A stretch of DNA of 64,000 nt, from the IMG/VR virus record IMGVR_UViG_3300002334_000124, positions 1 through 64,000 of that record. One strand, written 5' to 3'. The stretch comes from a virus. The position numbers and the translations under genes were made by a program. The stretch's first letter is position 1. Each line of letters begins with the position of its first letter. This document shows, one piece after another, positions 794 through 62,019 of this stretch. The notes beneath the pieces are model-generated. The model worked only from the letters and a program-made list of their open reading frames with translations, made no database searches and was not told where the DNA came from.

Positions 794-1150
794 GTGGAAG
801 AACGTGAACTGATCGTCTCTGTGACCAGGAAGGATTGCGACCGTCAGACCTTTAGGGGGTCGGGTCCTGGTGGTCAGCACAGGAACAAGCGCGATACGGG
901 GGTTCGTTGGATCCATCGTGAATCAGGTGCCAGAGGCGAGGCTAGCGAGAAGAAGTCGCAACATCAGAACGAACGGGTCGCGTGGCGCCGTATGGCAGAG
1001 TCACCCAAGTTTCAGCTGTGGCTAAAGATGCAGGGAGGGATGGCAGCCGTAATTGACGCGAACGTAAAGACGGCTATGAGGCCCCGTAATCTTCTGGTTG
1101 AAGGGAAAGACGAAGATGGTCGCTGGTCAAGCGAGGCCGTGGATCGATAG
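794..1150 (+). CDS. Release-factor-like GGQ protein (RF-1/ArfB-type domain)
   Basis: This 118-residue protein is built around the peptidyl-tRNA hydrolysis domain of class I release factors. The catalytic GGQ is at residues 26-28 in SGPGGQHRNK, followed by the family's typical VRWIH and SQHQN segments. It lacks the codon-recognition domains of RF1/RF2, so it resembles ArfB/ICT1-type rescue factors that release stalled peptides on the ribosome. Unlike ArfB the C-terminus is not clearly a long basic tail. The start is GTG with GGGGAG upstream. The 3' end overlaps the convergent DUF192 gene by 24 bp. With the tmRNA further on it suggests dual ribosome rescue (inference). Confidence 0.85.
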   Translation: MEERELIVSVTRKDCDRQTFRGSGPGGQHRNKRDTGVRWIHRESGARGEASEKKSQHQNERVAWRRMAESPKFQLWLKMQGGMAAVIDANVKTAMRPRNLLVEGKDEDGRWSSEAVDR

Positions 1151-9126: not shown

Positions 9127-9197
9127 AGGGGTGCTGATTGGTCAGACTGAGGTCTCCAAAACCTCAAGGCGGGGTTCGATCCCCCGTACCCCTGCCA
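9127..9197 (+). tRNA. tRNA-Trp (CCA)
   Basis: Acceptor AGGGGTG pairs with TACCCCT; anticodon stem GAGGT/ACCTC carries loop CTCCAAA. CCA is encoded. First tRNA of the array. Confidence 0.9.
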
Positions 9198-9202
9198 AAT
9201 AT

Positions 9203-9278
9203 GCCGGTCACGCAGGTGTGGACTTGCACTTCTCTTGTAAAGAAGACTGACGGGGTTCGACTCCCCGGTCCGGCTCCA
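9203..9278 (+). tRNA. tRNA-Thr (TGT)
   Basis: Anticodon stem CTTCT/AGAAG with loop CTTGTAA; T-arm CGGGG/CCCCG. The acceptor GCCGGTC/GTCCGGC has a T-T mismatch at position 6-67. CCA encoded. Confidence 0.88.
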
Positions 9279-9291
9279 AGTAAGTAAGTAT

Positions 9292-9366
9292 GCGACTATA
9301 GTGTAGTTGGTAACATCTCTGCCTTCCAAGCAGATGTCGTCGGTTCGAGTCCGTCTAGTCGCTCCA
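9292..9366 (+). tRNA. tRNA-Gly (TCC)
   Basis: Acceptor GCGACTA/TAGTCGC, anticodon stem TCTGC/GCAGA with loop CTTCCAA, encoded CCA. Confidence 0.92.
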
Positions 9367-9375
9367 ACTGAATAT

Positions 9376-9447
9376 TGCTCCCTAGCATAACGGTAGTGCT
9401 ACTGGTTCTGATCCAGTCAAGTCCGAGTTCGACTCTCGGGGGAGCAT
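9376..9447 (+). tRNA. tRNA-Gln (CTG)
   Basis: Acceptor TGCTCCC/GGGAGCA, anticodon stem ACTGG/CCAGT with loop TTCTGAT. CCA is not encoded. Confidence 0.9.
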
Positions 9448-9506
9448 CGAAAGGTCTACTAGCTGGTAGACAATTGAACATTGAGAACTGAATAGATCTG
9501 CCATAA

Positions 9507-9566
9507 TTAGTCAGTAGATCCCTACTTGCGCCCTGTATGGGTCTCAAGTGGTACTCTACTGACTAA
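9507..9566 (+). ncRNA. Leader hairpin before tRNA-Asp
   Basis: TTAGTCAGTAGA (9507-9518) pairs perfectly with 9555-9566; an inner CTACTTG/CAAGTGG pairing extends it. It ends exactly four bases before tRNA-Asp. One of a series of such hairpins in the array. Confidence 0.7.
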
Positions 9567-9570
9567 ATAA

Positions 9571-9641
9571 GGTCCTGTGGTGTAACGGTAACACGCCAGC
9601 TTGTCAAGCTGTAGTCGGGGGTTCAACTCCCCTCAGGACCG
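9571..9641 (+). tRNA. tRNA-Asp (GTC)
   Basis: Acceptor GGTCCTG/CAGGACC, anticodon loop TTGTCAA on stem CAGC/GCTG. CCA is not encoded. Confidence 0.92.
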
Positions 9642-9654
9642 CTAACGGGAAGTA

Positions 9655-9681
9655 CTGGGTTCGATTCCCAGCACGCGAGCC
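9655..9681 (+). pseudogene. tRNA 3' fragment (T-arm and acceptor half)
   Basis: A perfect T-arm CTGGG/CCCAG with loop TTCGATT is followed by CACGCGAG and CC, but only 13 bases separate it from tRNA-Asp, so no 5' half exists. A remnant of a lost tRNA or a tRNA-derived site. A 5'-half-like stretch lies at 9714-9755 but its acceptor does not match. Confidence 0.55.
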
Positions 9682-9755
9682 TCATAGTCTGCAGACTTTG
9701 GGGTGGTATCTATAGGTGCCTGCTGCGAGGTGTAATGGCTGCACGCCCGTGTTCT

Positions 9756-9828
9756 GCCCTGACCTGTGGATTCAGGCACCGAGATTACGAATCTTGGCTG
9801 CGGGGTTCAATTCCCCGTCGGGGCACCA
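9756..9828 (+). tRNA. tRNA-Arg (ACG)
   Basis: Acceptor GCCCTGA/TCGGGGC, anticodon stem CGAGA/TCTTG with loop TTACGAA, encoded CCA. ACG is expected to be edited to inosine by host TadA. Confidence 0.9.
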
Positions 9829-9835
9829 TACTACT

Positions 9836-9909
9836 GGGGCAGCATGTACCAAGGCTGGCGAGTCTCTCTTGCAAAGAGACTGTGAAGGGTTCGATTCCCT
9901 TCTGCTCCA
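9836..9909 (+). tRNA. tRNA-Ala (TGC)
   Basis: Acceptor GGGGCAG/CTGCTCC, anticodon stem TCTCT/AGAGA with loop CTTGCAA. The 3' end is A then CA, so CCA is incomplete. Confidence 0.92.
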
Positions 9910-9918
9910 CAACTTCTG

Positions 9919-9936
9919 TGTTACTATTCGGATGTG
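9919..9936 (+). promoter_or_regulatory. Extended -10 promoter of a leaderless HNH gene
   Basis: TG-T-TACTAT (9919-9927) is followed after six bases by the GTG start codon of the HNH gene. Same geometry as at 5721. Confidence 0.55.
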
Positions 9937-10320
9937 ATTTTCAGTCCGTATGACAAACATGGTTACACGCAGGGATCAGTGCAGGCAATCCTTGATCGGA
10001 AGCACGAAATGATGAGGGGTGGGCGCTCGAACAACATGAGCTACAAGATGGCTTACTGTGAGTGGCGAGACGGGTCGTTCTGCTACTGGTGCAATCGTGA
10101 ATTAGACATGTTGGATAAGAAGTCATTGATCCGCCCTACTCTCGACCATTTCCTCCCTGCCTGCCATGGCGGTCATAAGGTAGTCGAAAATCTTGTGCTC
10201 GCTTGCTACTACTGTAATCTCTACAGGGGTTCGACGCCTGCTTCGGCGACCTGCCTCTACTTGAAACATCGACAGGTGATCATGTGGATCATCCGAAGAA
10301 TGCGAAGACAGTTCAGATAA
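9934..10320 (+). CDS. HNH endonuclease
   Basis: Protein of 128 residues. The HNH core is complete: CYWCN zinc pair, TLDHFLPACHGG (catalytic DH and H), ENLVLACYYCN with the second zinc pair. Such free-standing HNH proteins in phage genomes act as homing nucleases or packaging nicking enzymes; its location inside a tRNA array favours the mobile kind. GTG 9934 is chosen as a leaderless start. Confidence 0.88.
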   Translation: MIFSPYDKHGYTQGSVQAILDRKHEMMRGGRSNNMSYKMAYCEWRDGSFCYWCNRELDMLDKKSLIRPTLDHFLPACHGGHKVVENLVLACYYCNLYRGSTPASATCLYLKHRQVIMWIIRRMRRQFR

Positions 10321-10330
10321 ATGTCCTTGC

Positions 10331-10434
10331 GCCAGGCAAGGTGAGCGTCCTGAGGTTCATGGCCTACAGGAAACTAAACGAGAGCACCGCATCGAGCCAC
10401 CCTTCGGGGCATGGGGACAAGGGACTCACCTGGC
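10331..10434 (+). ncRNA. Structured leader before tRNA-Glu
   Basis: GCCAGG (10331-10336) pairs with CCTGGC (10429-10434), closing a roughly 100-nt fold that contains more pairing (a GGTGAG/CTCACC alternative and a CCC-TTCG-GGG hairpin). It ends five bases before tRNA-Glu. Not a known RNA family to me. Confidence 0.5.
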
Positions 10435-10439
10435 AGTAA

Positions 10440-10511
10440 GCCCCCATGGTCTAATGGCGAAGACGTCAGATTCTCAGTCTGAAGATCCGGGTTCAACTCC
10501 CGGTGGGGGTA
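10440..10511 (+). tRNA. tRNA-Glu (CTC)
   Basis: Acceptor GCCCCCA/TGGGGGT, anticodon stem TCAGA/TCTGA with loop TTCTCAG, T-arm CCGGG/CCCGG. CCA not encoded. Confidence 0.9.
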
Positions 10512-10632
10512 CGCATATTAGCTAACGCTGGGGTTCCGCCCTAGTGCCACGGGATAACTTAATTTGCTGGCCTCGGCCCGCTGTTATCCGCGGCGGCAGT
10601 TCGACTCTGTGTGTGGATGCCGATAGATAGAT
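10512..10632. other. Unassigned structured stretch
   Basis: No gene is recognised. GGATAAC (about 10552) can pair with GTTATCC (about 10583), and two T-arm-like hairpins with TTCCG and TTCGACT loops occur, but I could not complete a cloverleaf. May hold a decayed tRNA. Confidence 0.35.
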
Positions 10633-11151
10633 ATGGCACGACCACTTTCCAGTAACGATGGACACATAGTCCGGTTGGCTCCTTCGTTGGTCCCGATCGG
10701 AGACGTAAAGGCTGCCCTCGGTGAAGAACCGACATGGGCCGACTATAAGACCTGGATTCTTACCGGTCCAGCTATCTGGTACGACAAGGACGTCGGCTAC
10801 GTCACGGTACCTTCGGGGTTCATGACAGACTTCGCTTCGATACCGTTCTTCTTCAGGTGGTGGCAAACAGGCGGAACTGGTCCTCAAAGGATCGCTTCCT
10901 ACTTCCATGACTACATGTATTCGGAGCAGCTTTTCTCCAAGAAGGATGCTGACCGGATATTTCGTGAGGTCATGCAGGCCGCTAGACCTAAGGGCGGCAG
11001 GATACGTCATTTCCGTTCGATGTTGCGCCGCAATGTTATGTGGTTGGCGCTGAGAGTCGGAGGTATCTTTGCTTGGCGTTCTAACGGCAAGAAGCTGGCT
11101 AGTCTAGGTACTGGTTGGCGAGTAGCTTCGGAGTGTGGCGCAGCTTGGTAG
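10633..11151 (+). CDS. DUF1353 family protein
   Basis: Protein of 172 residues. The DUF1353 signature is clear: VTVPSGFMTDFASIPFFFRWW, then ASYFHDYMYS and a KKDADRIFREVM block. The family is common in phages and of unknown role; the conserved Asp and His residues hint at hydrolase activity. The last 23 bases, including the stop codon, lie inside the tRNA-Pro gene, so mRNA and tRNA maturation compete. No strong ribosome site precedes ATG 10633. Confidence 0.85.
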   Translation: MARPLSSNDGHIVRLAPSLVPIGDVKAALGEEPTWADYKTWILTGPAIWYDKDVGYVTVPSGFMTDFASIPFFFRWWQTGGTGPQRIASYFHDYMYSEQLFSKKDADRIFREVMQAARPKGGRIRHFRSMLRRNVMWLALRVGGIFAWRSNGKKLASLGTGWRVASECGAAW

Positions 11152-11205
11152 CGCACTTGATTTGGGATCAAGGGGCCGAGAGTTCGAATCTCTCCACTCC
11201 GACCA
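11129..11205 (+). tRNA. tRNA-Pro (TGG)
   Basis: Textbook tRNA-Pro: acceptor CGGAGTG/CACTCCG, anticodon stem CTTGA/TCAAG with loop TTTGGGA, encoded CCA. Overlaps the end of the DUF1353 gene. Confidence 0.95.
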
Positions 11206-11237
11206 TTTAAGACCTACGGTTATTCAGAGGACCCACC

Positions 11238-11315
11238 ATGAGTCTCCACCTAGGTGAGACAAGGAAATGTGGAAAAGGCTTTGAACGTTCCAGGACTATC
11301 TACATGAACGCATAA
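11238..11315 (+). CDS. Possible 25-residue peptide
   Basis: Short frame beginning MSLHLGETRKCGKGFERS, with AGAGGA six bases before the ATG. It lies in a 197-base gap between two tRNA genes. Nothing else supports it. Confidence 0.3.
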   Translation: MSLHLGETRKCGKGFERSRTIYMNA

Positions 11316-11346
11316 ACTGTGGTGGTGCAGTGGGAACTCTCGTGAG

Positions 11347-11360
11347 GTCACCGCGGTGAC
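11347..11360. repeat. Perfect 14-bp palindrome
   Basis: GTCACCGCGGTGAC is fully self-complementary. In a gap between tRNA genes, it could be an operator or simply a hairpin. Confidence 0.6.
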
Positions 11361-11369
11361 AACTCCTTC

Positions 11370-11398
11370 TCGGCAGTGAGGCTTGAGGTAGCTGCTGA
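11370..11398 (+). ncRNA. Leader hairpin before second tRNA-Pro
   Basis: TCGGCAG pairs with CTGCTGA (one G-U) across a 15-nt loop. It ends four bases before the tRNA. Confidence 0.55.
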
Positions 11399-11402
11399 AC
11401 AA

Positions 11403-11480
11403 CTGGATGAGGACCATGAGGAAGGTCACCTGGTTTGGAGCCAGGATATCGTGTGGGTTCGAATCCCACCATCCAGACCA
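11403..11480 (+). tRNA. tRNA with anticodon TGG (Pro by anticodon)
   Basis: Acceptor CTGGATG/CATCCAG, D-stem GACC/GGTC, anticodon stem CCTGG/CCAGG with loop TTTGGAG, encoded CCA. It has the same anticodon as the tRNA-Pro at 11129 but a very different body, so the amino acid identity is less certain. Confidence 0.8.
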
Positions 11481-11496
11481 AACACAAAGGAGAAAT

Positions 11497-11646
11497 ATGT
11501 TAGGTCGGCTAATCAAGACCATCACAAAGACTGCGACGAAAACAATAACGGAGCTTCCAACTACCGTGATCGGAGTCGTTGAAGGAACTATCGAAGGAGT
11601 CGAAGAGGGTTTGAAGACTCTCGGCGACAAGATCGAAGGTAAGTAG
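11497..11646 (+). CDS. 49-residue amphipathic small protein
   Basis: Protein of 49 residues beginning MLGRLIKTITKTATKTI and made of an amphipathic or weakly hydrophobic helix with regular Thr/Lys and Gly/Glu spacing. AAAGGAG lies at ideal distance before ATG 11497. Function unknown; small membrane-active proteins of this look occur in phages. Confidence 0.6.
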   Translation: MLGRLIKTITKTATKTITELPTTVIGVVEGTIEGVEEGLKTLGDKIEGK

Positions 11647-11734
11647 AGTCTCCCGCCAGGGGGAGGGTTTGAACCAAATCCTGGCAGCATGCAAAACTCA
11701 CGTCGGAGTAACTGCCCGACATCATGTGAGACTC
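11646..11734. ncRNA. Cloverleaf-like structured element
   Basis: GAGTCTC (11646-11652) pairs with GAGACTC (11728-11734). Inside are a GCCAGG/CCTGGC arm and a GTCGG/CCGAC arm nested in CTCAC/GTGAG. On the minus strand it contains a GGTTCAA T-loop-like motif, but neither strand gives a convincing tRNA. Confidence 0.45.
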
Positions 11735-11780
11735 TTCCCATTCTTTGCCGATTAGTAACCGTCGAATGAATGGGCTATAC

Positions 11781-11827
11781 GCACCCGTGCCTCGCTGGGG
11801 TCCTTTGGCTCCTGAGGTTGCGGGTGC
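11781..11827 (+). ncRNA. Leader hairpin before tRNA-Asn
   Basis: GCACCCG (11781-11787) pairs with CGGGTGC (11821-11827), followed inward by GCCTC/GAGGT. It ends exactly four bases before tRNA-Asn. Confidence 0.7.
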
Positions 11828-11831
11828 ACTT

Positions 11832-11905
11832 TGTAACCGGGCCCTCTGGGCGGGGGCGCGTGACTGTTAATCACGATGCGCTGGGTTCGAATCCCAGGGT
11901 TACAG
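11832..11905 (+). tRNA. tRNA-Asn (GTT)
   Basis: Acceptor TGTAACC/GGTTACA, anticodon stem CGTGA/TCACG with loop CTGTTAA, T-arm CTGGG/CCCAG. CCA not encoded. Confidence 0.92.
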
Positions 11906-11907
11906 CT

Positions 11908-11957
11908 TTGGTAGTCGGTGGACTTGGACAACAGTATGTCATTCTGTCGATTACCAA
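11908..11957 (+). ncRNA. Leader hairpin before tRNA-His
   Basis: TTGGTA-g-TCG at 11908 pairs with CGA-t-TACCAA ending at 11957, exactly four bases before tRNA-His. Inner pairing is weaker. Confidence 0.6.
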
Positions 11958-11961
11958 TCAT

Positions 11962-12038
11962 GGGGCGAAAGGCAAAGTCGGTGCGCCGCCAGGATGTGGC
12001 CCTGGTGCAAGCGGGTTCAACCCCCGCTCGTCCCTCCA
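11962..12038 (+). tRNA. tRNA-His (GTG)
   Basis: Acceptor GGGGCGA/TCGTCCC, anticodon stem CCAGG/CCTGG with loop ATGTGGC, encoded CCA. The discriminator is T and position -1 is T, so the usual G(-1):C73 identity pair of tRNA-His is absent. Confidence 0.82.
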
Positions 12039-12042
12039 ATTT

Positions 12043-12118
12043 GCCCCGGTGCTGTGCTGGTTCGGCAATCAGGTTTTCAACCTGGTGAACGCGGGTTCGA
12101 TTCCCGTCCGGGGTTCCA
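12043..12118 (+). tRNA. tRNA-Glu (TTC)
   Basis: Acceptor GCCCCGG/CCGGGGT, anticodon stem TCAGG/CCTGG with loop TTTTCAA, encoded CCA. Confidence 0.88.
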
Positions 12119-12348
12119 AACGAATAGCTGAGACTATGCGAATAGGCCTAGCTTGGATAGGCATTCCTTACCAAAGGTGCTATATTCACAGCTGTTGTAA
12201 ATAACGGTGTTCTGGTAAATCTAGCGCAGTCTGGAATATGGCTGTCTCTCTTCCCTTCGGGAGAGCTTATATCATAGGGCCGGGGTGGTTACCCGTGTGC
12301 CCAACGTTTGAGGCTGTATGCGTTTCACCAACGAACACGAAGGGACAT
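12119..12348. other. 230-bp gap with structured RNA before tRNA-Val
   Basis: No gene seen. TGC-TATATT at 12178-12186 could be an extended -10 promoter. TCCCTTCG (12252-12259) can pair with CGAAGGGA (12338-12345), ending three bases before tRNA-Val, or form a local CTCTTCCC-TTCG-GGGAGAG hairpin. A second hairpin of GGGC/GCCC type lies near 12278-12301. Confidence 0.4.
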
Positions 12349-12425
12349 GATCGTATAGCTCAGATGGCTAGAGCGCTTCCTTGACGTGGAAGAGGCCGCA
12401 GGTTCAAGTCCTGCTATGATCACCA
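12349..12425 (+). tRNA. tRNA-Val (GAC)
   Basis: Acceptor GATCGTA/TATGATC, anticodon stem CTTCC/GGAAG with loop TTGACGT, encoded CCA. Confidence 0.93.
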
Positions 12426-12430
12426 AATAT

Positions 12431-12507
12431 GGGCGTGTAGTTTAGTTGGCTAAAATACCTCTTTTACAAGGAGAAGATCGTGGGTTCGAGTCCCACTTCG
12501 CCCACCA
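12431..12507 (+). tRNA. tRNA-Val (TAC)
   Basis: Acceptor GGGCGTG/TTCGCCC with one mismatch, anticodon loop TTTACAA, T-arm GTGGG/CCCAC, encoded CCA. Confidence 0.88.
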
Positions 12508-12519
12508 ATTTAAGTTCGA

Positions 12520-12593
12520 TGCGCGGTAGTCTAACGGTACGACGGGGGACTCATAATCCTCAGATCCGGGTTCAATTCCCGGCTGCGCCACCA
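12520..12593 (+). tRNA. tRNA-Met (CAT), unpaired 1-72
   Basis: Anticodon stem GGGGA/TCCTC with loop CTCATAA, T-arm CCGGG/CCCGG, encoded CCA. Counting back from the T-arm, position 1 is T and 72 is C, a mismatch as in bacterial initiators, but the anticodon stem lacks the three G-C pairs of initiators. It could be initiator, elongator or Ile2. Confidence 0.85.
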
Positions 12594-12635
12594 TCTAGTA
12601 GCGGTGTTTTCCTAGTGACACGCACCGCTACTAGA
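12594..12635 (+). ncRNA. Leader hairpin, perfect 13-bp stem
   Basis: TCTAGTAGCGGTG (12594-12606) pairs perfectly with 12623-12635. It starts directly after the CCA of tRNA-Met and ends four bases before the next tRNA. Confidence 0.8.
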
Positions 12636-12639
12636 ACTT

Positions 12640-12712
12640 TGTGCCATCGTCCAATTGGCTAGGACGCTTCATTCATACCGAAGAAATTCGGGTTCAATTC
12701 CCGGTGGCACGA
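12640..12712 (+). tRNA. tRNA with anticodon CAT (Met or Ile2)
   Basis: Acceptor TGTGCCA/TGGCACG, anticodon stem CTTC/GAAG with an A-C mismatch at 31-39 and loop TTCATAC, T-arm TCGGG/CCCGG. CCA is not encoded. Second CAT tRNA; lysidine modification to read ATA is possible but a tRNA-Ile(TAT) also exists here. Confidence 0.82.
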
Positions 12713-12722
12713 CAACAAATCT

Positions 12723-12769
12723 GGGGCTGGTCACAGCATCGTCCACGTCAATGTGGCTCGGCCAGCTCC
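12723..12769 (+). ncRNA. Leader hairpin before tRNA-Gly
   Basis: GGGGCTGG (12723-12730) pairs with CCAGCTCC (12762-12769), with an inner CCAC/GTGG hairpin. It ends exactly four bases before tRNA-Gly. Confidence 0.7.
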
Positions 12770-12773
12770 TCTT

Positions 12774-12849
12774 GTGCGTATAGTGTTAGCGGCAAGCACA
12801 TGACCTTGCCAAGGTCAAAGGATGGGTTCAAATCCCATTACGCGCTCCA
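12774..12849 (+). tRNA. tRNA-Gly (GCC)
   Basis: Acceptor GTGCGTA/TACGCGC, anticodon stem TGACC/GGTCA with loop TTGCCAA, encoded CCA. Confidence 0.92.
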
Positions 12850-12850
12850 C

Positions 12851-12933
12851 GGGTCGACTGGGCATTGGAGAGCCCACCTGGCTGTAAACCAGACGTTTCG
12901 ACTGTGGCGGTTCAACTCCGTCTCGACCCACCA
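12851..12933 (+). tRNA. tRNA-Tyr (GTA)
   Basis: Acceptor GGGTCGA/TCGACCC, anticodon loop CTGTAAA on stem CTGG/CCAG, long variable arm as expected for Tyr, encoded CCA. Confidence 0.92.
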
Positions 12934-12998
12934 GAAGTCAATCAGGGAGACGCGGTTCGTTGCTCCGCTCCTTGCAACGAGAGGCCCTGGTTGACTTC
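12934..12998 (+). ncRNA. Long hairpin between tRNA-Tyr and tRNA-Gln
   Basis: GAAGTCAATCAGGG (12934-12947) pairs with 12985-12998 over 14 bp with one G-U. It starts directly after the CCA of tRNA-Tyr and ends eight bases before tRNA-Gln. Confidence 0.7.
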
Positions 12999-13006
12999 GT
13001 TCACGA

Positions 13007-13081
13007 TCCTCTATAGTGTAATGGCCAGCACCCGAGTTTTTGGCGCTCGTAGTTTGGGTTCGAATCCCAATGGAGGTACCA
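13007..13081 (+). tRNA. tRNA-Gln (TTG), 3' end carries a ribosome site
   Basis: Anticodon stem CGAGT/GCTCG with loop TTTTGGC, T-arm TTGGG/CCCAA, acceptor TCCTCTA/TGGAGGT with T-T at 1-72. The acceptor strand GGAGGT plus CCA is followed at once by an ATG, so it doubles as the Shine-Dalgarno of the next gene. Confidence 0.88.
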
Positions 13082-13243
13082 ATGGCACCACAAGATAGAA
13101 TTCTCATCTGCAAAGAATGTCTGCCCATGTTCGATCTTCGCCCTATGGAGCGTGTCGATCTGGGCATATGTGTCGAATGCGACTTGAAAGAAGTCGGCTA
13201 CATGTACGAATCGGCCCTCGTCAAGAAAAGGGGAACCGAGTGA
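13082..13243 (+). CDS. Small zinc-ribbon-like protein
   Basis: Protein of 53 residues with two Cys pairs, CKEC and CVEC, spaced 20 apart, the layout of a small zinc ribbon. ATG 13082 follows the CCA of tRNA-Gln with no gap, and its ribosome site GGAGG lies inside the tRNA acceptor stem. Translation would therefore need the unprocessed transcript. The stop overlaps the next GTG as GTGA. Confidence 0.7.
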   Translation: MAPQDRILICKECLPMFDLRPMERVDLGICVECDLKEVGYMYESALVKKRGTE

Positions 13244-13344
13244 TAGTTCTACCTAACGCCATTATCGGGATCATCATTGGAATAGTGGCTGCCTTTTCTC
13301 TCTCTAGGATTATCCGATCTCGTTCATCTGATAGTGAAGACTAG
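13240..13344 (+). CDS. 34-residue single-pass membrane peptide
   Basis: Begins with GTG 13240 (GGGGAA upstream, GTGA overlap) and reads VLPNAIIGIIIGIVAAFSLS, a membrane helix, followed by a basic then acidic tail (RIIRSRSSDSED). The last base of its stop codon is the first base of tRNA-Leu. Confidence 0.6.
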   Translation: MIVLPNAIIGIIIGIVAAFSLSRIIRSRSSDSED

Positions 13345-13420
13345 CCTGCGTAGCCTAACTGGTAAAGGCGATGGATTTAAGATCCATTATTTGTGGGTTC
13401 GATCCCCACCGTGGGCTCCA
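13344..13420 (+). tRNA. tRNA-Leu (TAA), short variable loop
   Basis: Acceptor GCCTGCG/CGTGGGC, anticodon stem ATGGA/TCCAT with loop TTTAAGA, T-arm GTGGG/CCCAC, encoded CCA. Only five bases (TATTT) separate the anticodon and T arms, whereas bacterial tRNA-Leu normally has a long variable arm. Confidence 0.87.
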
Positions 13421-13437
13421 ATCAACAAAAGGAAATC

Positions 13438-13719
13438 ATGAAAACAGTAGATCAATTTAAGTCACTAATACTGACGAATCACCCGGACTGTCCTTACACC
13501 AGAGTACGCAATCATGTGTTTTGCGACCCGAAGGGTGAGAGGATTCTGCGACAGTATCTTTTGGACCTTAATGACGAGGGTGAGTATCCAGACTTGGAGT
13601 TCTCCAACGCAGATGACGAGCTGTACGTTGTCACTCGGCATGGTGGCGAGATTCATTTCTTCGATGTTGTGGCTGGCGTTGAAGTAGATCGCAATTCAAG
13701 ACAGAAGAATCAAGATTAG
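13438..13719 (+). CDS. Hypothetical protein
   Basis: Protein of 93 residues, unrecognised. It begins MKTVDQFKSLILTNHPDCPY and contains CDPKGERILRQYLLDL and an acidic segment. AAAGGA precedes ATG 13438 by six bases. It fills the space between two tRNA-Leu genes, the second of which begins right after its stop codon. Confidence 0.7.
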   Translation: MKTVDQFKSLILTNHPDCPYTRVRNHVFCDPKGERILRQYLLDLNDEGEYPDLEFSNADDELYVVTRHGGEIHFFDVVAGVEVDRNSRQKNQD

Positions 13720-13795
13720 GCCTCCGTATCCCAACGGTAGAGGAAACTGGCTTAGACCCAGTTCAGTGTGAGTTCGACTCTCACCGGGGGCTCCA
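13720..13795 (+). tRNA. tRNA-Leu (TAG), short variable loop
   Basis: Acceptor GCCTCCG/CGGGGGC, anticodon stem ACTGG/CCAGT with loop CTTAGAC, T-arm GTGAG/CTCAC, encoded CCA. The variable loop is five bases (TCAGT), atypical for Leu. Confidence 0.87.
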
Positions 13796-13799
13796 AAAT

Positions 13800-13885
13800 G
13801 GTAGGTTGACAGAGCCAGGTAATGTCCCTGGTTGCTAACCAGAGCGAGCCGAAAGGTTGCGGGGGTTCGAATCCCTCACCTACCG
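13800..13885 (+). tRNA. tRNA-Ser (GCT)
   Basis: Acceptor GGTAGGT/ACCTACC, anticodon loop TTGCTAA, long variable arm (GCGAGCC...GGTTGCG). CCA not encoded. Confidence 0.92.
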
Positions 13886-13919
13886 CGGATGGTGCTGCGA
13901 AACCCGCACCTCAGGCTGT

Positions 13920-13949
13920 TCGACAGGGCCGATGTAAATTGACTGTCGA
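13920..13949 (+). ncRNA. Leader hairpin before tRNA-Ser
   Basis: TCGACAG (13920-13926) pairs with CTGTCGA (13943-13949); it ends three bases before tRNA-Ser(TGA). Confidence 0.55.
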
Positions 13950-13952
13950 CAA

Positions 13953-14037
13953 GGTGGGTGGACTGGCGACGGGCCAGCCCTGTTTTGAACGCAGGTACTG
14001 TGAAAGCAGACGAGTTCGATTCTTGCACCCACCGCCA
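13953..14037 (+). tRNA. tRNA-Ser (TGA)
   Basis: Acceptor GGTGGGT/ACCCACC, anticodon stem CCTGT/GCAGG with loop TTTGAAC, long variable arm, encoded CCA. Confidence 0.92.
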
Positions 14038-14217
14038 ATCTAGGTTGTCCACGTCCTAGCAGCTGCGCCTAACGCGGGATTAAACCGTTAGGCGCCAGGT
14101 ACCAAAATCGTGGAAGAGCGTTGGTTCCCCAGGATGATTGACATGGGAACATCTGGCCCGGTATTGCGTGGAGTCCTCCCTAGCCGGGGAATAAATGAGG
14201 ACCTAGATCATCCACTT
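14038..14217 (+). ncRNA. 180-bp structured region
   Basis: No gene seen. A perfect 10-bp hairpin GCGCCTAACG/CGTTAGGCGC sits at 14065-14095. Then GGATGAT (14132-14138) pairs with ATCATCC (14207-14213), enclosing GTTCCC/GGGAAC and GTCCTC/GAGGAC hairpins, and ends four bases before the tRNA-like RNA. Confidence 0.55.
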
Positions 14218-14303
14218 GCGTCTTGCACGTCGTAGTGCTATTAGTCTGAGGGCCATGGCTACCAAAGATGAAAAGCAGGGTTAGAGTCCCTGAGGGCGCT
14301 CCA
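14218..14303 (+). tRNA. tRNA-like RNA, anticodon unresolved
   Basis: Acceptor GCGTCTT/AGGGCGC, T-arm CAGGG/CCCTG and encoded CCA are present, but the T-loop is TTAGAGT rather than TTC-type, and neither a normal D-arm nor anticodon arm can be drawn. It may be a decayed or highly divergent class II tRNA. Confidence 0.5.
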
Positions 14304-14304
14304 T

Positions 14305-14380
14305 GCTGACGAACCGAATTGGCTAGGAACCGGATTGCAACTCCGGTATTATGGGGGTTCGAGTCCCTCCGTCAGCTCCA
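14305..14380 (+). tRNA. tRNA-Cys (GCA)
   Basis: Acceptor GCTGACG/CGTCAGC, anticodon stem CCGGA/TCCGG with loop TTGCAAC, encoded CCA. Confidence 0.94.
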
Positions 14381-14381
14381 T

Positions 14382-14459
14382 GGGTGTGTAGCAAAAGTTG
14401 GTTTTTGCAGCGGCCTTTTAAGCCGACAAACGCGGGTTCGATTCCTGTCACGCCCACCA
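14382..14459 (+). tRNA. tRNA-Lys (TTT)
   Basis: Acceptor GGGTGTG/CACGCCC, anticodon loop CTTTTAA on stem CGGC/GCCG, encoded CCA. Confidence 0.9.
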
Positions 14460-14460
14460 T

Positions 14461-14532
14461 GGGTCACTATGTTAAATGGAAAACGGCAAGACTCTTAATC
14501 TTGAATTCGGGGTTCGATCCCCCGGTGACCTA
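14461..14532 (+). tRNA. tRNA-Lys (CTT)
   Basis: Acceptor GGGTCAC/GTGACCT, anticodon stem CAAGA/TCTTG with loop CTCTTAA, T-arm CGGGG/CCCCG. CCA not encoded. Confidence 0.9.
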
Positions 14533-14545
14533 CGAAATACAACTA

Positions 14546-14933
14546 GGGGCTGAATAGGCTTTCGACGTTGGTGAATAGATTGTTGACCGCAATCGGAGTT
14601 GCTCAGACTCTTGAAACAGGGCACCAAAATACACGGCGAACCAACATTCACCGTTGCTACCAGCGAGGACATCTGGTCTGCTTTCGAGCAGACTGAGCTT
14701 GTCTCTGTCTAGTAGCAGAGGGCTCAGCTGGCCCTTAGAACCCAACAGCTTGACTTCTAGCAAAGACTAGGTGGAGCACTGGACATACCATTGCAAGACT
14801 GTCAGGAGAGACTGACTGGTGGACGGCATAGACGGGTAACCGACTAGCCCCATAGTGGCCACTCACAGTGGCATGATTGTATCGGTCATCATGATGCATG
14901 CAACGGACGGGGGTTCGACTCCCCCCAGCTCCA
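14546..14933 (+). ncRNA. ssrA: tmRNA (transfer-messenger RNA)
   Basis: The 5' end GGGGCTGAATAGGCTTTCGA and 3' end GGGGGTTCGACTCCCCC-CAGCTCC-A are the conserved tmRNA ends; they pair as acceptor GGGGCTG/CAGCTCC. Length is 388 bases with pseudoknot-like repeats between. The tag frame that ends in tandem TAG TAG runs to 14709; reading from GGC 14635 gives 25 codons, or from GCT 14656 18 codons, ending in FEQTELVSV. Bacterial tags end in ALAA-like residues, so this tag is unusual. tmRNA frees stalled ribosomes by adding the tag. The full CCA is not encoded. Confidence 0.92.
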
Positions 14934-14943
14934 CAATTTATTT

Positions 14944-15029
14944 ACTCCCGTGGCGGAATGGTAGACGCGCTAGGTTGAGGGCCTAGTGACCGCAAGGTCG
15001 TGTGGGTTCGACTCTCACCGGGAGTACCA
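14944..15029 (+). tRNA. tRNA-Leu (GAG)
   Basis: Acceptor ACTCCCG/CGGGAGT, anticodon stem CTAGG/CCTAG with loop TTGAGGG, normal long variable arm (TGACCGCAAGGTCG), encoded CCA. A canonical Leu tRNA, unlike the other three. Confidence 0.95.
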
Positions 15030-15032
15030 CGT

Positions 15033-15109
15033 GGGCGTGTAGCATAACGGGTAAATGCACCCAGCTTATATCTGGGAGACAATGGGTTCAAGCCCCATTT
15101 CGCCTACCA
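15033..15109 (+). tRNA. tRNA-Ile (TAT)
   Basis: Anticodon stem CCCAG/CTGGG with loop CTTATAT, T-arm ATGGG/CCCAT, encoded CCA; the acceptor GGGCGTG/TTCGCCT has one mismatch. TAT is rare in bacteria, which normally use lysidine-modified CAT. Confidence 0.87.
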
Positions 15110-15110
15110 A

Positions 15111-15183
15111 CGGCATAGACGGGCTGGTTGCCCTGGTGATTCTGATAAGATTACTGCGCTCGGTTCGATTCCTAGTATGCCGA
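15111..15183 (+). tRNA. tRNA-Ile (GAT)
   Basis: Acceptor CGGCATA/TATGCCG, anticodon stem TGATT/GATTA with loop CTGATAA. CCA not encoded. Confidence 0.9.
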
Positions 15184-15189
15184 CAACAT

Positions 15190-15265
15190 GGGTCTTTGGT
15201 GTAGTTGGATGTCACATGAGTTTGAAAAGCTTAAGGCCGGGGTTCGAGTCCCCGAGGACCCACCA
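15190..15265 (+). tRNA. tRNA-Phe (GAA)
   Basis: Acceptor GGGTCTT/AGGACCC, anticodon stem TGAGT/GCTTA with loop TTGAAAA, encoded CCA. Confidence 0.92.
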
Positions 15266-15280
15266 ATCGAAAGGGAAGAC

Positions 15281-16384
15281 ATGACAGAAGATATTGATAT
15301 CGGCAAGTTGCTGGTTGAGGCCAACGAATGTGAGGATGATTTCCGTAGATGTTTTTCCCTCGACACTGACTACGCCTTTTCTCTGATTTCCCAGAACCAG
15401 ACGTATTTCTGGGAGTACGGTCTGAAACATCGCATCAAGTCTTCGTTCAAGGGTGTCCCTAGTTTCAATCTCGATTCCTTCATGAAGCTTCACGATCTGG
15501 AACTAACTTGTTCCTACATGTTGAAGACCGCGTCGGACTATCTAGTTCTTGCAAAAGATCGAACATGGTGTGCTAACGTCGATGTTCGTGGTGATGAGAT
15601 ACAGGTTACTCTTGATGCTGTAACAGCAGAGCGTGCTGTCGACCTTATGGTGGCCTGCGATTTCAGTTCCTATATTTCCCCCGTTAAAGACAATCACACC
15701 TCCATGCGGTTCTGGATGATGGGGCAACACGGCATGGAGCTTCACTCTAGAGATCTAGACTTTCCCATTTTCGAGGACATCGTCAAAAGTTACCCGACTG
15801 GAGTACGCAATGCCCTCAATGAGTTGGTCAACACTCCTTTCGGAGAGTCTGGCAACATCATTCTCTTTCACGGTCCTCCAGGCACAGGCAAGACTACGGC
15901 TATTCGCGCTCTTGCTAGACACTGGAGTAAAAACATGGTCTTCAATGTGATCATCGAACCTGATGTCGTCTTCGGTTCCTATTCCAACATCTACCAAATG
16001 AAGAATGGTGACTCTGATGACGAGGACAAGAAACTGATGTTCGTAATTGAGGACAGCGACGAACTAATCAGCGAGGACAGCAAGGCGCGTACTGGTCAAG
16101 CTTTAGCGAAATTGCTCAACATGACTGATGGCTTGATTGGACAGGGAGTGAGTTTCAATGTTATCATCACCACCAATGAACCGATCGACAAGCTACACCC
16201 TGCGCTTATCCGTCCAGGTCGTTGTTTGGCTGATATCCATTTCCCTCCTCTCACAAGAGAAGAGGCTGAGGAGCGATTCCCGGATAAGGAATTCAAAACC
16301 AAGGAAGTAACCTTGGCCGAAGCCTTTGCTCCACCACCAATTCGTTCAGAGAAGAAGGACCACCGTACTGGAACCTACCTCTAG
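15281..16384 (+). CDS. AAA+ ATPase
   Basis: Protein of 367 residues with one C-terminal AAA+ module: Walker A HGPPGTGKTT (197-206), Walker B LMFVIEDSDE (252-261), sensor 1 VIITTNEP (294-301) and arginine finger region PALIRPGRC. The N-terminal 180 residues are a phage-specific domain of unknown fold. Such single-module ATPases remodel proteins or nucleoprotein complexes; partners are unknown. It lies inside the tRNA array with tRNA-Phe just upstream. ATG 15281 has AAAGGGAAG upstream; a longer frame from 15188 would run through the tRNA and is rejected. Confidence 0.93.
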   Translation: MTEDIDIGKLLVEANECEDDFRRCFSLDTDYAFSLISQNQTYFWEYGLKHRIKSSFKGVPSFNLDSFMKLHDLELTCSYMLKTASDYLVLAKDRTWCANVDVRGDEIQVTLDAVTAERAVDLMVACDFSSYISPVKDNHTSMRFWMMGQHGMELHSRDLDFPIFEDIVKSYPTGVRNALNELVNTPFGESGNIILFHGPPGTGKTTAIRALARHWSKNMVFNVIIEPDVVFGSYSNIYQMKNGDSDDEDKKLMFVIEDSDELISEDSKARTGQALAKLLNMTDGLIGQGVSFNVIITTNEPIDKLHPALIRPGRCLADIHFPPLTREEAEERFPDKEFKTKEVTLAEAFAPPPIRSEKKDHRTGTYL

Positions 16385-16389
16385 GACAG

Positions 16390-16461
16390 GCCTCCGCTAG
16401 CGGATCTAGACTCGACCTTCCGAAGGTTGATGAAGGAGTTCAATTCTCCTCGGGGGCTCCA
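16390..16461 (+). tRNA. tRNA-Arg (CCG)
   Basis: Acceptor GCCTCCG/CGGGGGC, anticodon stem CGACC/GGTTG with loop TTCCGAA, encoded CCA. Confidence 0.9.
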
Positions 16462-16467
16462 AGATTT

Positions 16468-16541
16468 GCCCTCGCCAGTGGATTCTGGCCGCGAGATTCC
16501 TAATTTTGCTGGTTCGGGTTCGATTCCCGACGAGGGTACCA
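16468..16541 (+). tRNA. tRNA-Arg (CCT)
   Basis: Acceptor GCCCTCG/CGAGGGT, anticodon stem CGAGA/TTTTG with loop TTCCTAA, encoded CCA. Confidence 0.9.
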
Positions 16542-16542
16542 G

Positions 16543-16615
16543 GCCCTGCGCACTGGATGTGCAGTCGATGCTTCTAACTTCGACGTGTCAGGTTCGATTC
16601 CTGGGTGGGGCACCA
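16543..16615 (+). tRNA. tRNA-Arg (TCT)
   Basis: Acceptor GCCCTGC/GTGGGGC, anticodon loop CTTCTAA on a stem with one T-T mismatch, encoded CCA. Third of a tandem Arg trio. Confidence 0.88.
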
Positions 16616-16663
16616 CAAGGCAGATCTATTCAGTATGCTCACTCACAGAAAAGGGAGGGAACC

Positions 16664-17173
16664 ATGATGACTACCGGAGTTCTGGTCCTCAACGCCACAT
16701 TTGAACCGATCAACGTCATTCACCTTCATCGCGCTGTATGTCTCGTCGTACAGGAAAAGGCTGACGTGATTGAGTCTGTGGACGGTAAGACTTTCCGTTC
16801 GGCTAACACCGAGATTCCTTGCCCTTCTGTTGTGAAGCTTCGTTACTTTGTGAAGATTCCGTGGAAGCGAAGGCGTCCTGCAGTCACGAATCGTAACGTT
16901 CTTGGTCGTGACAATGATACGTGTGGCTACTGCGGTGGTGAGGCGTCTACCATTGACCACATTCACCCTCGCGCCCATGGTGGTACGAACGACTGGATGA
17001 ACGTGATTGCTGCTTGTTCGCCCTGCAATAGCACGAAGAGCGACCTAACCCTTGAACAGCTTGGTTGGGAACTACTCTTCAAGCCGACTATCCCAGCTGA
17101 TAAGACATGGCTGGTGGTGGGTTGGGCTGAGCGCGAACAACAGGCTAAGTATTTGCAGCACGCGACCATATAG
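16664..17173 (+). CDS. HNH endonuclease
   Basis: Protein of 169 residues. The N-terminal part (VLVLNATFEPINVIHLHRAV) is the typical opening of the actinobacterial and phage HNH family. The core has CGYCG, TIDHIHPRAHGG and NVIAACSPCNSTKSD, with both zinc pairs and the catalytic His. It sits between tRNA genes, fitting a homing or mobile role. AGGGAGG precedes ATG 16664. Confidence 0.92.
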   Translation: MMTTGVLVLNATFEPINVIHLHRAVCLVVQEKADVIESVDGKTFRSANTEIPCPSVVKLRYFVKIPWKRRRPAVTNRNVLGRDNDTCGYCGGEASTIDHIHPRAHGGTNDWMNVIAACSPCNSTKSDLTLEQLGWELLFKPTIPADKTWLVVGWAEREQQAKYLQHATI

Positions 17174-17179
17174 AGGCCT

Positions 17180-17254
17180 GCTCCTGTACCCCAATTGGTA
17201 GAGGGACCGCATTCAAAACGCGGCAACGTGAGGGTTCGACTCCCTCCAGGGGCA
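17180..17254 (+). tRNA. tRNA-Leu (CAA), short variable loop
   Basis: Acceptor GCTCCTG/CAGGGGC, anticodon stem CCGC/GCGG with loop TTCAAAA, T-arm GAGGG/CCCTC. Only six bases (CAACGT) form the variable loop. CCA not encoded. Confidence 0.85.
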
Positions 17255-17259
17255 CTGCT

Positions 17260-17332
17260 GCCTGTGTAACTCAGTTGGTAGAGTACTTCCATGGTAAGGA
17301 AGAAGTCCGGGGTTCGACTCCCCGCCCAGGCC
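17260..17332 (+). tRNA. tRNA-Thr (GGT)
   Basis: Acceptor GCCTGTG/CCCAGGC with one mismatch, anticodon stem CTTCC/GGAAG with loop ATGGTAA. Last tRNA of the array. Confidence 0.9.
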
Positions 17333-17356
17333 CTCAGAAAAACAAATGACAATTAG

Positions 17357-17405: not shown

Positions 17406-18956
17406 GTGGCTGTTCCAACTGATGAGATTACGGTAATAGGTCCTGCTGGTGGCGTGTTTGTCGTGCTGACGACAGACGAGCAGGAGTATTTCGAGAATCT
17501 TTGCGATCGATACACTAGAGACTATGCGTTCCAGAACGTTTCAGATCTTGCTGACTTAGAGCGTGTGATTCAGAACGAAGTTCTTTCACAGCGGTTTAAC
17601 CGTTTTCTGGGTACGGGCTTTGATTACTGGGGTGATCCGGTCTCGACTAAAGAGTTTACGGATGCAGTCAAAGGCCTGTCTCTCGAATTGCGCGGACTCA
17701 AGAAGGCTCTTGGAATTGATCGCATATCTCGCAAGCATGATTCGTCAGAATCCGTGTCGGATTATGTAACCAAGCTATTAGAGCGTGCTCGTGAATTTTC
17801 CGTAATGCGAAACGAGCAGACCACTAAAGTGTTAACGGTCTTCATGGAGTTACGCGCATTGGTTACCTTGCATGATAACTGCTTGAGTGGAGATACAGAA
17901 GTTTTGACTAGCAATGGTGTGGTTCCTATTGCTACGTTGGCCGACCTCAAGGCTACCGTTCTGAGTAAATCTGGATCCGGTAGGTGGGTTGAAGCCGAAT
18001 TCAAAAGCTTTGGAATGCAGCCTCTTATGGAAATTGTCTTAAAGAGAAATGGTGCAACGAAATTAGTGCGAGCCACGCCTGGGCATCGTTGGTATGTTAA
18101 CGGTCGAATCGTACGCACTGATGAACTGGATCCGGGCATGCGTTTAGATTCTTGTTGGGGTTCGCGTAAATCTGTGAGACCTTCACCACAGGGCGTGCAG
18201 GCGGGGATCGTGTATGGGGATGGGAGTTTAGACAAAAGACAAAAGTCAGGTTCGTTTGTAGTTCTCTGTGGTCTCAAGAATGAAGAACTTCTGAAGTGGT
18301 TCCCCAACAATGAAGTCAAACAAACTAAGGTGGGATTGAAGATCTGTGATCTTCCGCGTTCGTTTAAGTCTCGACCCTCTCTTGATGAATCGAGATCGTA
18401 TCTGTATGGGTGGCTCGCTGGATATTTTGCAGCTGACGGAACTGTGGACCGTAATGGATCACCTTCACTGTCTTCGACATCCTTTGAGTCATTGAAGATT
18501 GCCAGAAATGTTTGCTATCTGCTTTCGATCCCAACTTTGGGTATCTCGTCTGTTGATCGGATTAGCAACCTCACTGGCGAATCTTCAATACTTCACAGGC
18601 TTTCATTCCCAAAAGGTGCACTCGATCGAGAGTTCTTCTTGATTGAAGAACACAGGAATCGGTGGTCAGCCAGGACTCGGCTGGTCAAATCCTATGTTCC
18701 CGATTATGAAGTCGTCACGGTGCTTCCAACTGGTGAGGTGGAAGAGGTTTTCTGTGCCGTTGTTCCTGAATTCCAGAACTTCACTTTGGCTGACAATCTG
18801 CTTTCTGGTAACTGCACGGAGGAAGAACGTCGTACCCAAGGGGCCGAGATAGACGACATCTTGCAATGGCTTCGTGATTACGCATTTCCAGAGTTTGACA
18901 CCATAGACGCTGAGTTCATTAACTCCAGTCAGCGTTATTGGGTCCAGGAAATGTAA
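17406..18956 (+). CDS. Intein-containing protein before the terminase
   Basis: A 516-residue precursor. Residues 159-469 are an intein: it opens with CLSGDTEVLT, has LAGLIDADG-type homing endonuclease motifs (AGIVYGDGS near 262 and LAGYFAADGTV near 337), and ends VPEFQNFTLADNLLSGN before Cys 470. After splicing the host protein would be 205 residues, helical, joining ...VTLHDN to CTEEERR.... I do not recognise it; its position at the head of the packaging genes suggests a virion or packaging role. The start is GTG 17406 with GGAGG upstream and a promoter at 17357. Confidence 0.9.
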   Translation: MAVPTDEITVIGPAGGVFVVLTTDEQEYFENLCDRYTRDYAFQNVSDLADLERVIQNEVLSQRFNRFLGTGFDYWGDPVSTKEFTDAVKGLSLELRGLKKALGIDRISRKHDSSESVSDYVTKLLERAREFSVMRNEQTTKVLTVFMELRALVTLHDNCLSGDTEVLTSNGVVPIATLADLKATVLSKSGSGRWVEAEFKSFGMQPLMEIVLKRNGATKLVRATPGHRWYVNGRIVRTDELDPGMRLDSCWGSRKSVRPSPQGVQAGIVYGDGSLDKRQKSGSFVVLCGLKNEELLKWFPNNEVKQTKVGLKICDLPRSFKSRPSLDESRSYLYGWLAGYFAADGTVDRNGSPSLSSTSFESLKIARNVCYLLSIPTLGISSVDRISNLTGESSILHRLSFPKGALDREFFLIEEHRNRWSARTRLVKSYVPDYEVVTVLPTGEVEEVFCAVVPEFQNFTLADNLLSGNCTEEERRTQGAEIDDILQWLRDYAFPEFDTIDAEFINSSQRYWVQEM

Positions 18957-61178: not shown

Positions 61179-61345
61179 AATACTTAGCACGGGTTTGGAT
61201 GACCGTCTTGGTCTTGATAATTTTGTCGACTATCGCTATTGGTCTGGGCGCAGATTCTTTTGAATCATTCGCACTTTTTGTGGCTGCAGAGGTAGCCGTA
61301 TGTGCTGTGGCGGGGATTACGGTATGGGCTTTGGAGGCGATGTGA
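61175..61345 (+). CDS. Small two-helix membrane protein
   Basis: Protein of 56 residues beginning MKYLARVWMTVLVLIILSTI, with a second hydrophobic stretch ALFVAAEVAVCAVAGITVW. ATGA overlap upstream and ATGTGA overlap downstream. Unknown role. Confidence 0.68.
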   Translation: MKYLARVWMTVLVLIILSTIAIGLGADSFESFALFVAAEVAVCAVAGITVWALEAM

Positions 61346-62019
61346 TAGGAACCCCCGTACTCGAAGGCATTGTCGGTTCGACCGCGTATGGCCTTGCAAC
61401 ACCTGAGTCTGACATTGATAAGTTGGGGGTCTTTGCTGCCCCCCTCGACACGCTGTTGGGGATGCCGTTCTTCAAGGCGTCCGTGTCTTGTAACGACCCA
61501 GACGTGACGTATCACGAACTCAAGAAGTACATGTACCTCGCAGGAAGAAGTAACCCAGCGGTGTTGGAGTTGTTGTACCTCAACGACTACACGGTCGCGA
61601 CCGATGATATTGGTAAGGTGCTGGTCGAGAATCGTGACATGTTCATCTCTCAGAGGATCCGTGACTCTTATGGAGGCTACGCCCTGCAACAGGTGAGACG
61701 TCTAGAACGTAGAGGTGACGGTTCGTTCAAGTCTAAGCTGCGCAAACGTAAGAATAAACACAAACGCCACATCGCACGATTGGTGGTCCAGTGTGAGCAA
61801 GCCCTAGACGAAGGTTTTCTGCAAGTGCGACTCACTCCCAGTCAGATCGAAGAGGTGCGATTCGTAGAGCAAATGGACGATGATCAACTTTCGATTTGGT
61901 TTGAAATGAAGCTTGTCCGCATCGACAGTACGCCCTCAGGCCTACCAGAAAGCGCAGACTGGGATAAGATCAACGATCTACTTCTTGAATTCAGGAGAAC
62001 ACAATGGCAATCCCAGTAA
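61342..62019 (+). CDS. Nucleotidyltransferase superfamily protein
   Basis: Protein of 225 residues. GIVGSTAYGLATPESDIDKL (residues 9-28) is the pol-beta-type nucleotidyltransferase loop with the two catalytic Asp. GTG 61342 has GGAGG four bases upstream; an earlier frame start at 61300 overlaps the membrane gene and is rejected. The rest is helical. Substrate unknown; such proteins are common in large phages. Confidence 0.86.
   Translation: MIGTPVLEGIVGSTAYGLATPESDIDKLGVFAAPLDTLLGMPFFKASVSCNDPDVTYHELKKYMYLAGRSNPAVLELLYLNDYTVATDDIGKVLVENRDMFISQRIRDSYGGYALQQVRRLERRGDGSFKSKLRKRKNKHKRHIARLVVQCEQALDEGFLQVRLTPSQIEEVRFVEQMDDDQLSIWFEMKLVRIDSTPSGLPESADWDKINDLLLEFRRTQWQSQ

Follow-up and report, generated by a model that had tools for sequence, protein, structure and literature searches.

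Host tmRNA tags end mostly in ALAA, and a phage tmRNA whose tag has a different end raises the question of what becomes of the ribosomes and proteins on which it acts. We addressed this question for a tmRNA gene found in IMG/VR record IMGVR_UViG_3300002334_000124 (84,764 bases), the first 64 kb of which were analysed as one stretch of 64,000 nt that we call the window. An earlier note based on the bare sequence had recognised the two ends of a tmRNA and, between them, a frame closed by tandem TAG TAG codons whose peptide of about 18-25 residues ends in FEQTELVSV. Phage tmRNAs have been counted before (402 in 18,146 genomes; PMC9004378), and we found no paper testing the function of a phage tmRNA tag in a literature search outside of which most subscription journals lay.

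A one-piece tmRNA gene

The window contains a complete one-piece tmRNA, called by ARAGORN at 14546-14934 on the plus strand and matched by the Rfam model RF00023 at 14546-14936 from end to end (model positions 1-374; 83.7 bits, E 5.5e-31, curated cut-off 47 bits), which bears out both the ends and the coordinates given in the earlier note. Its fold energy is lower than that of all 100 of 100 shuffles (z -2.83). The parts of the gene are as follows, with the basis of each assignment in brackets.

14546..14934, plus strand: tmRNA gene (ssrA), one-piece (ARAGORN; full-length RF00023 match; fold against shuffles)
14546..14552, plus strand: 5' half of the acceptor stem (GGGGCUG), whose G3 belongs to the alanine identity pair G3.U70 (sequence; RF00023 alignment)
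14582..14594, plus strand: 5' strand of P2, GUUGACCGCAAUC (pairs with 14875-14887)
14595..14623, plus strand: PK1 pseudoknot (sequence complementarity; also in the related locus L184)
14630..14634, plus strand: UACAC adjoining the resume codon on its 5' side, positions -5 and -4 being U and A (sequence)
14635..14715, plus strand: tag reading frame GEPTFTVATSEDIWSAFEQTELVSV, then UAG UAG (ARAGORN; frame conservation against L184)
14875..14887, plus strand: 3' strand of P2, GAUUGUAUCGGUC (pairs with 14582-14594)
14909..14933, plus strand: T arm, 3' acceptor strand CAGCUCC and discriminator A (sequence; RF00023 alignment)

The acceptor stem pairs 14546-14552 with 14926-14932 and includes G3.U70, the long P2 helix is present, the T loop reads UUCGA, the discriminator is A14933, and an anticodon arm is absent. 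No CCA tail is encoded, and the discriminator position is followed by CAA. PK1 consists of S1 (14595-14599/14607-14611, GGAGU/ACUCU) and S2 (14600-14604/14619-14623, UGCUC/GGGCA). The hallmarks of a one-piece tmRNA that can be read from the sequence are all present, i.e., the covariance match, a tRNA-like domain, PK1 together with A at -4, and a tag frame terminated by a stop.

Resume codon and tag

Translation resumes at GGC (14635) according to ARAGORN, 11 nt after the end of PK1, and the frame runs through 25 codons (14635-14709) to tandem UAG UAG at 14710-14715. The five bases 5' of GGC are U-A-C-A-C, with A at -4 and U at -5. In E. coli tmRNA, the resume frame is set chiefly by the equivalent A86 (-4) and to a lesser degree by U85 (-5) (PMC2481249), and both are kept in the window tmRNA. 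The tag called by ARAGORN, GEPTFTVATSEDIWSAFEQTELVSV followed by two stops, is in the frame that the earlier note had picked by its tandem TAG TAG and FEQTELVSV end, and its 25 residues fall within the length proposed there. The tag ends in LVSV and not, as also noted earlier, in ALAA. A covariance model that would place the resume codon in another frame with an ALAA-like end was the point on which the earlier reading hinged; the two other frames from the same point terminate in ...TSSKD and ...CFRAD, so that none of the three frames has an ALAA end. The canonical ssrA degron of ClpXP is LAA or a close variant at the very end, in place of which the window tag has LVSV. The window tag is acidic as well as V-ended.

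tmRNAs of related phages

A search with the large terminase (TerL) returned 52 viral loci, and 31 records (30 from this search and one from a tmRNA pattern search) were scanned with RF00023, of which three gave a match over the cut-off. The first is a second contig of the same phage (L009/L062) with an identical tmRNA gene, which is not independent because the two contigs are 100% identical over 21.6 kb. The second, G022, is the uncultured phage contig IMGVR_UViG_3300002231_000766, with a TerL 59% identical to that of the window phage and a tmRNA of 448 nt (locus L184; RF00023, 61.6 bits) that ARAGORN does not call. By our own reading from the base after CAAAC, its tag is DETNTFIGVPSADIWDAFYNEASVSPVERVLASV followed by a stop. 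The two tmRNAs of this phage group have the same PK1, in which direct reading shows a U-A pair of S1 replaced by A-U in L184, and their tags share TF, DIWxAF and the end L-x-S-V. They differ in that the tag of G022 has 34 residues, a GAC resume codon and a single UGA stop, and ends literally in ASV where the window tag has VSV.

The alignment score of the two tags was reached by 30 of 20,000 shuffles. Compared between window and L184, the tag frame scores a z of 4.2 against shuffles and is the best conserved; the two other frames, at 2.3 and 1.7, also receive weak support from nucleotide conservation. This tag family comprises two independent sequences. The tag frame from GGC is supported by the spacing from PK1, the A at -4 and this conservation in a relative.

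The third match, in the related 147.7-kb phage contig G012 (terminase 49%), is an 82-nt tmRNA reduced to the tRNA-like domain (TLD-only; L185:1501-1582, plus strand, 55.6 bits) that keeps G3.U70; when the 301-base stretch was scanned alone, it stayed below the cut-off. It resembles the TLD-only tmRNA of mycobacteriophage DS6A (PMC4131195), a form whose expression in E. coli inhibits tmRNA (PMC11915505). The window gene differs from this type by its full mRNA-like part.

Pattern searches of viral contigs added little to this group. The pattern AAACAGGGCACCAAAA found G022, the phage copy and otherwise chance hits, the other seven of which were null with Rfam, and AGCCCCATAG..ATGATTGTA gave one extra match, L210, that is not a tmRNA; back-translated TEADFAEIEA had no match in viral contigs. 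A phage contig of 164.8 kb contains a permuted (two-piece) tmRNA (L061:1303-1575, plus strand; RF04321, 82.7 bits) with the tag ANIAQNDEVFALVA before its stop. In G022 (L207), the match of the ribonucleotide reductase gene to the window protein is split into three blocks lying apart, which suggests an interruption by introns or inteins.

There is no near match to the window phage in the phage collection searched. Its TerL matches, among cultured phages, only GX15bay (46%) and, weakly, a Microcystis phage, and a TerL search of genome contigs returned no relatives. An actinobacterial host is plausible.

Tags of bacteria and other phages

We compared the tag with those of 119 genome loci chosen by an actinobacterial-type tmRNA 5' end, 107 of which (mostly actinobacterial) had readable tags; 91 of these end in ALAA and 71 are 12 aa long. 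Canonical actinobacterial ssrA (e.g., ADSHQRDYALAA) shares the RF00023 fold, the alanine identity pair and the resume rule with the window tmRNA, but its tag is mostly 12 aa with an ALAA end, unlike the 25-aa tag with LVSV. Among viral contigs selected by the tmRNA 3' end, a sample biased by its 3' pattern, there were 43 distinct tags; the last residue is A in 36 of them (AA in 27) and V in none. ARAGORN gives the tags APVPLMGL or APVSLMGL, also different from LAA, for the viral contigs L082, L105 and L109. One contig filed under Candidatus Omnitrophota (L288) has a 24-aa tmRNA tag ending in APALV, so that phages may not be the only carriers of long V-ended tags.

Tags more similar in build are found in cultured actinophages. 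A query with the tmRNA of a C2 phage returned 194 Mycobacterium records, and long V-ended tags (…AAALV, …SVLV) are known from about 190 records of Mycobacterium phages as well as from Gordonia phages. The odd tags that the earlier note ascribed to some mycobacteriophage tmRNAs are real: several C1 records list the tag ATDTDATVTDAEIEAFFAEEAAALV and Phabba (C2) has ANDNDATVTEADFAEIEAFANDSVLV, ending in ...ANDSVLV; Bxz1 is listed with ssrA as well (PMC4131195). Like the window gene, the tmRNAs of these Bixzunavirus/Ceeclamvirinae phages (C1, C2: Shifa, Phabba) are one-piece and lie in a large tRNA array, and their tags of 25-26 aa are acidic with a valine end instead of ALAA. However, they end in LV and the window tag in SV, and the C1/C2 phages are a group unrelated to the window phage. 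The Gordonia phages Forza/Boopy, Sixama, GMA2 and GodonK likewise have long acidic V-ended tags in tRNA arrays, with different sequence and an LV end where the window tag has SV. Forza-type phages carry EEANAPVVTEADFAEIEAFANSEAAALV, and the tags of GMA2, Sixama and GodonK, where ARAGORN calls none, end in ALV by our own reading of the sequence. In Sixama EAFANS is duplicated with the C-terminal end unchanged. A Ro-like protein adjoins the tmRNA in Boopy and Sixama and was not seen beside that of the window. The tRNA arrays of two tmRNA-bearing cultured actinophages also contain a GOLLD RNA (PegLeg, L205:2303-2716) and a Pistol ribozyme (GMA2, L197:3378-3434).

Homology of the window tag with those of C1, C2 and Gordonia phages, tempting by eye (ADF..EIEAF versus DIWxAF), was not borne out by shuffling, in which the similarity of the window tag to cultured actinophage tags was not significant (p 0.33; p 0.05 for the tag of L184). 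The window tag is of the same build as these V-ended tags, with homology not demonstrable. Long V-ended actinophage tags are already in GenBank notes; non-ALAA, V-ended phage tags are on record in many actinobacterial phages, and the window tag is a further example. It adds an independent phage group in which LAA has been lost from the tag and a small hydrophobic end retained.

Possible function of the tag

The explanation that we favour, and hold to be somewhat more probable than improbable, is a working tmRNA that is charged by the host, rescues ribosomes with host SmpB and carries a slowed degron that lowers the destruction of tagged proteins. The host alanyl-tRNA synthetase would charge the window tmRNA, given its G3.U70 pair, and host SmpB, required since no phage SmpB was found, would deliver it, in the infected cell, to ribosomes that have stalled on broken mRNA. 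These would restart at GGC and stop at UAG UAG, adding an alanine and the 25-residue acidic tag with its LVSV end. The chief benefit would be the return of ribosomes to use, and with release as the first gain to the phage the end of the tag would be free to change. In plating of a lambda-P22 hybrid phage, active tmRNA and ribosome release are required and tag function is dispensable (PMC2481249). The tag would have lost the LAA by which ClpXP captures proteins rapidly and kept a small hydrophobic SV end, such that tagged (largely phage) proteins are degraded slowly, their destruction being lowered and probably not abolished.

For the last step, the synthetic ssrA variants AAV and ASV offer C-termini of the same kind (SV-COOH). 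In E. coli, GFP tagged with either is more stable than with LAA or LVA (PMC9097571), and in Bacillus thuringiensis both are brighter than LAA, with a half-life near 15 min for AAV versus more than 7 h for the untagged protein (PMC5732988). Because AAV and ASV slow Clp-dependent degradation without abolishing it, LVSV should be a weak degron and not a null one, which fits better than no degron at all. This weak-degron reading leans on variants engineered on short host tags and assayed in E. coli and B. thuringiensis, which are unrelated hosts, and the window tag ends in VSV. That cultured actinophages keep long V-ended tags would count for the favoured explanation. Selection on release alone could also leave the tag neutral, or a different protease could recognise it.

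This last idea can be taken further, to a full but different degron whose helix-like acidic part with DIWxAF and LxSV end are recognised by some other protease or adaptor of the host for fast destruction. Conservation of the peptide in L184 does exceed chance, and small hydrophobic ends are generally retained in phage tags, but with just two sequences, no known adaptor and no significant similarity to cultured actinophage tags (p 0.33) we consider it unlikely. If instead release is all that is needed, the tag sequence would be nearly irrelevant and drift, with weak selection to keep the frame open and ended by a stop. Phage growth assays in E. coli hinge on release and not on tag function (PMC2481249), and tag length varies between window and L184 (25 versus 34 aa) as well as between Forza and Sixama (28 versus 34 aa, by internal duplication). 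Yet TF, DIWxAF and LxSV are common to the window and L184, and Sixama kept its AAALV end while the middle of the tag was duplicated, which makes near-irrelevance quite unlikely in our judgement. The LxSV end and DIWxAF core might be a selected non-degron that protects nearly finished phage proteins or passes them on to other machinery, e.g., the phage AAA ATPase at 15188-16384, a decidedly doubtful proposal. No ClpP, no ClpX/ClpA-type AAA_2 unfoldase and no SmpB were found in the phage record, an absence that is not final because the record is a fragment, so that no phage-encoded path for sparing, hiding or re-routing tagged peptides is visible.

Two further alternatives concern the RNA itself. 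As a decoy, it would mainly compete with host tmRNA for SmpB and disturb host quality control as TLD-only forms do, and a phage with related terminase (G012, 49%) has such an 82-nt element, like the inhibitory one of DS6A (PMC4131195, PMC11915505); the window gene has nevertheless kept features that a decoy would not need (PK1, resume codon, undamaged tag, tandem stops), and we regard this role as very unlikely. That the sequence is a functionless, decayed or accidental likeness of a tmRNA is scarcely credible. Its unencoded CCA and a score over the cut-off yet below some phage tmRNAs (Kumao, 118 bits) could be read this way, but similar scores are found for phage tmRNAs that look functional (Shifa 74.3, Boopy 80.2), and decay is at odds with the full-length match, a fold energy below all shuffles, the compensated PK1, the open tag frame and a location inside an intact tRNA array. 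If such tags do spare proteins, phages have uncoupled ribosome rescue from protein destruction.

Neighbouring translation genes

The tmRNA is accompanied in the window by further genes related to translation.

794..1150, plus strand: stand-alone GGQ protein of 118 aa with an RF-1 domain and GSGPGGQ (PF00472, 52.7 bits; sequence)
9127..17333, plus strand: tRNA array with 33 ARAGORN tRNAs and the tmRNA inside (ARAGORN, Rfam)
61300..62019, plus strand: RlaP-type RNA-repair nucleotidyltransferase (PF10127, 68 bits)

The GGQ protein, for which the nearest NCBIfam model is PrfH (53.4 bits, under its cut-off), lacks an obviously basic tail of the ArfB type and was not found in the 43-kb G022 fragment. 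It is possibly a second ribosome-rescue factor of the window phage, and the RlaP-type enzyme may belong to the same translation-maintenance set. Earlier work has remarked on genes for release factors and tmRNA within tRNA arrays of mycobacteria and their phages (PMC5966550). Taken together, tmRNA, GGQ factor and RlaP would serve the upkeep of translation under RNA damage, and this set along with the 33 tRNAs suggests a wider strategy in which translation is sustained while host RNA is broken.

Within the array, a tRNA at 14305-14377 (plus strand; Rfam, 41.7 bits) with an anticodon loop that fits Cys(gca) was missed by ARAGORN, which calls a tRNA-Cys with the odd anticodon aca at 12431-12507. 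Directly beyond the stretch of the array that holds the tmRNA, at 15188-16384 on the plus strand, lies the AAA ATPase, which is of the classical (CDC48/PAN-like) clade and probably has a later true start because the listed ATG precedes a tRNA-Phe; as a co-conserved partner of the tmRNA it was rejected, having no match in the G022 stretches searched. Just 5' of the terminase, a 516-aa ORF (17406-18956, plus strand) contains an intein-like insert with a LAGLIDADG_3 domain that runs from CLSGDTEVLT... to ...LSGN, followed by C, and relatives pass directly from residue 159 to 466.
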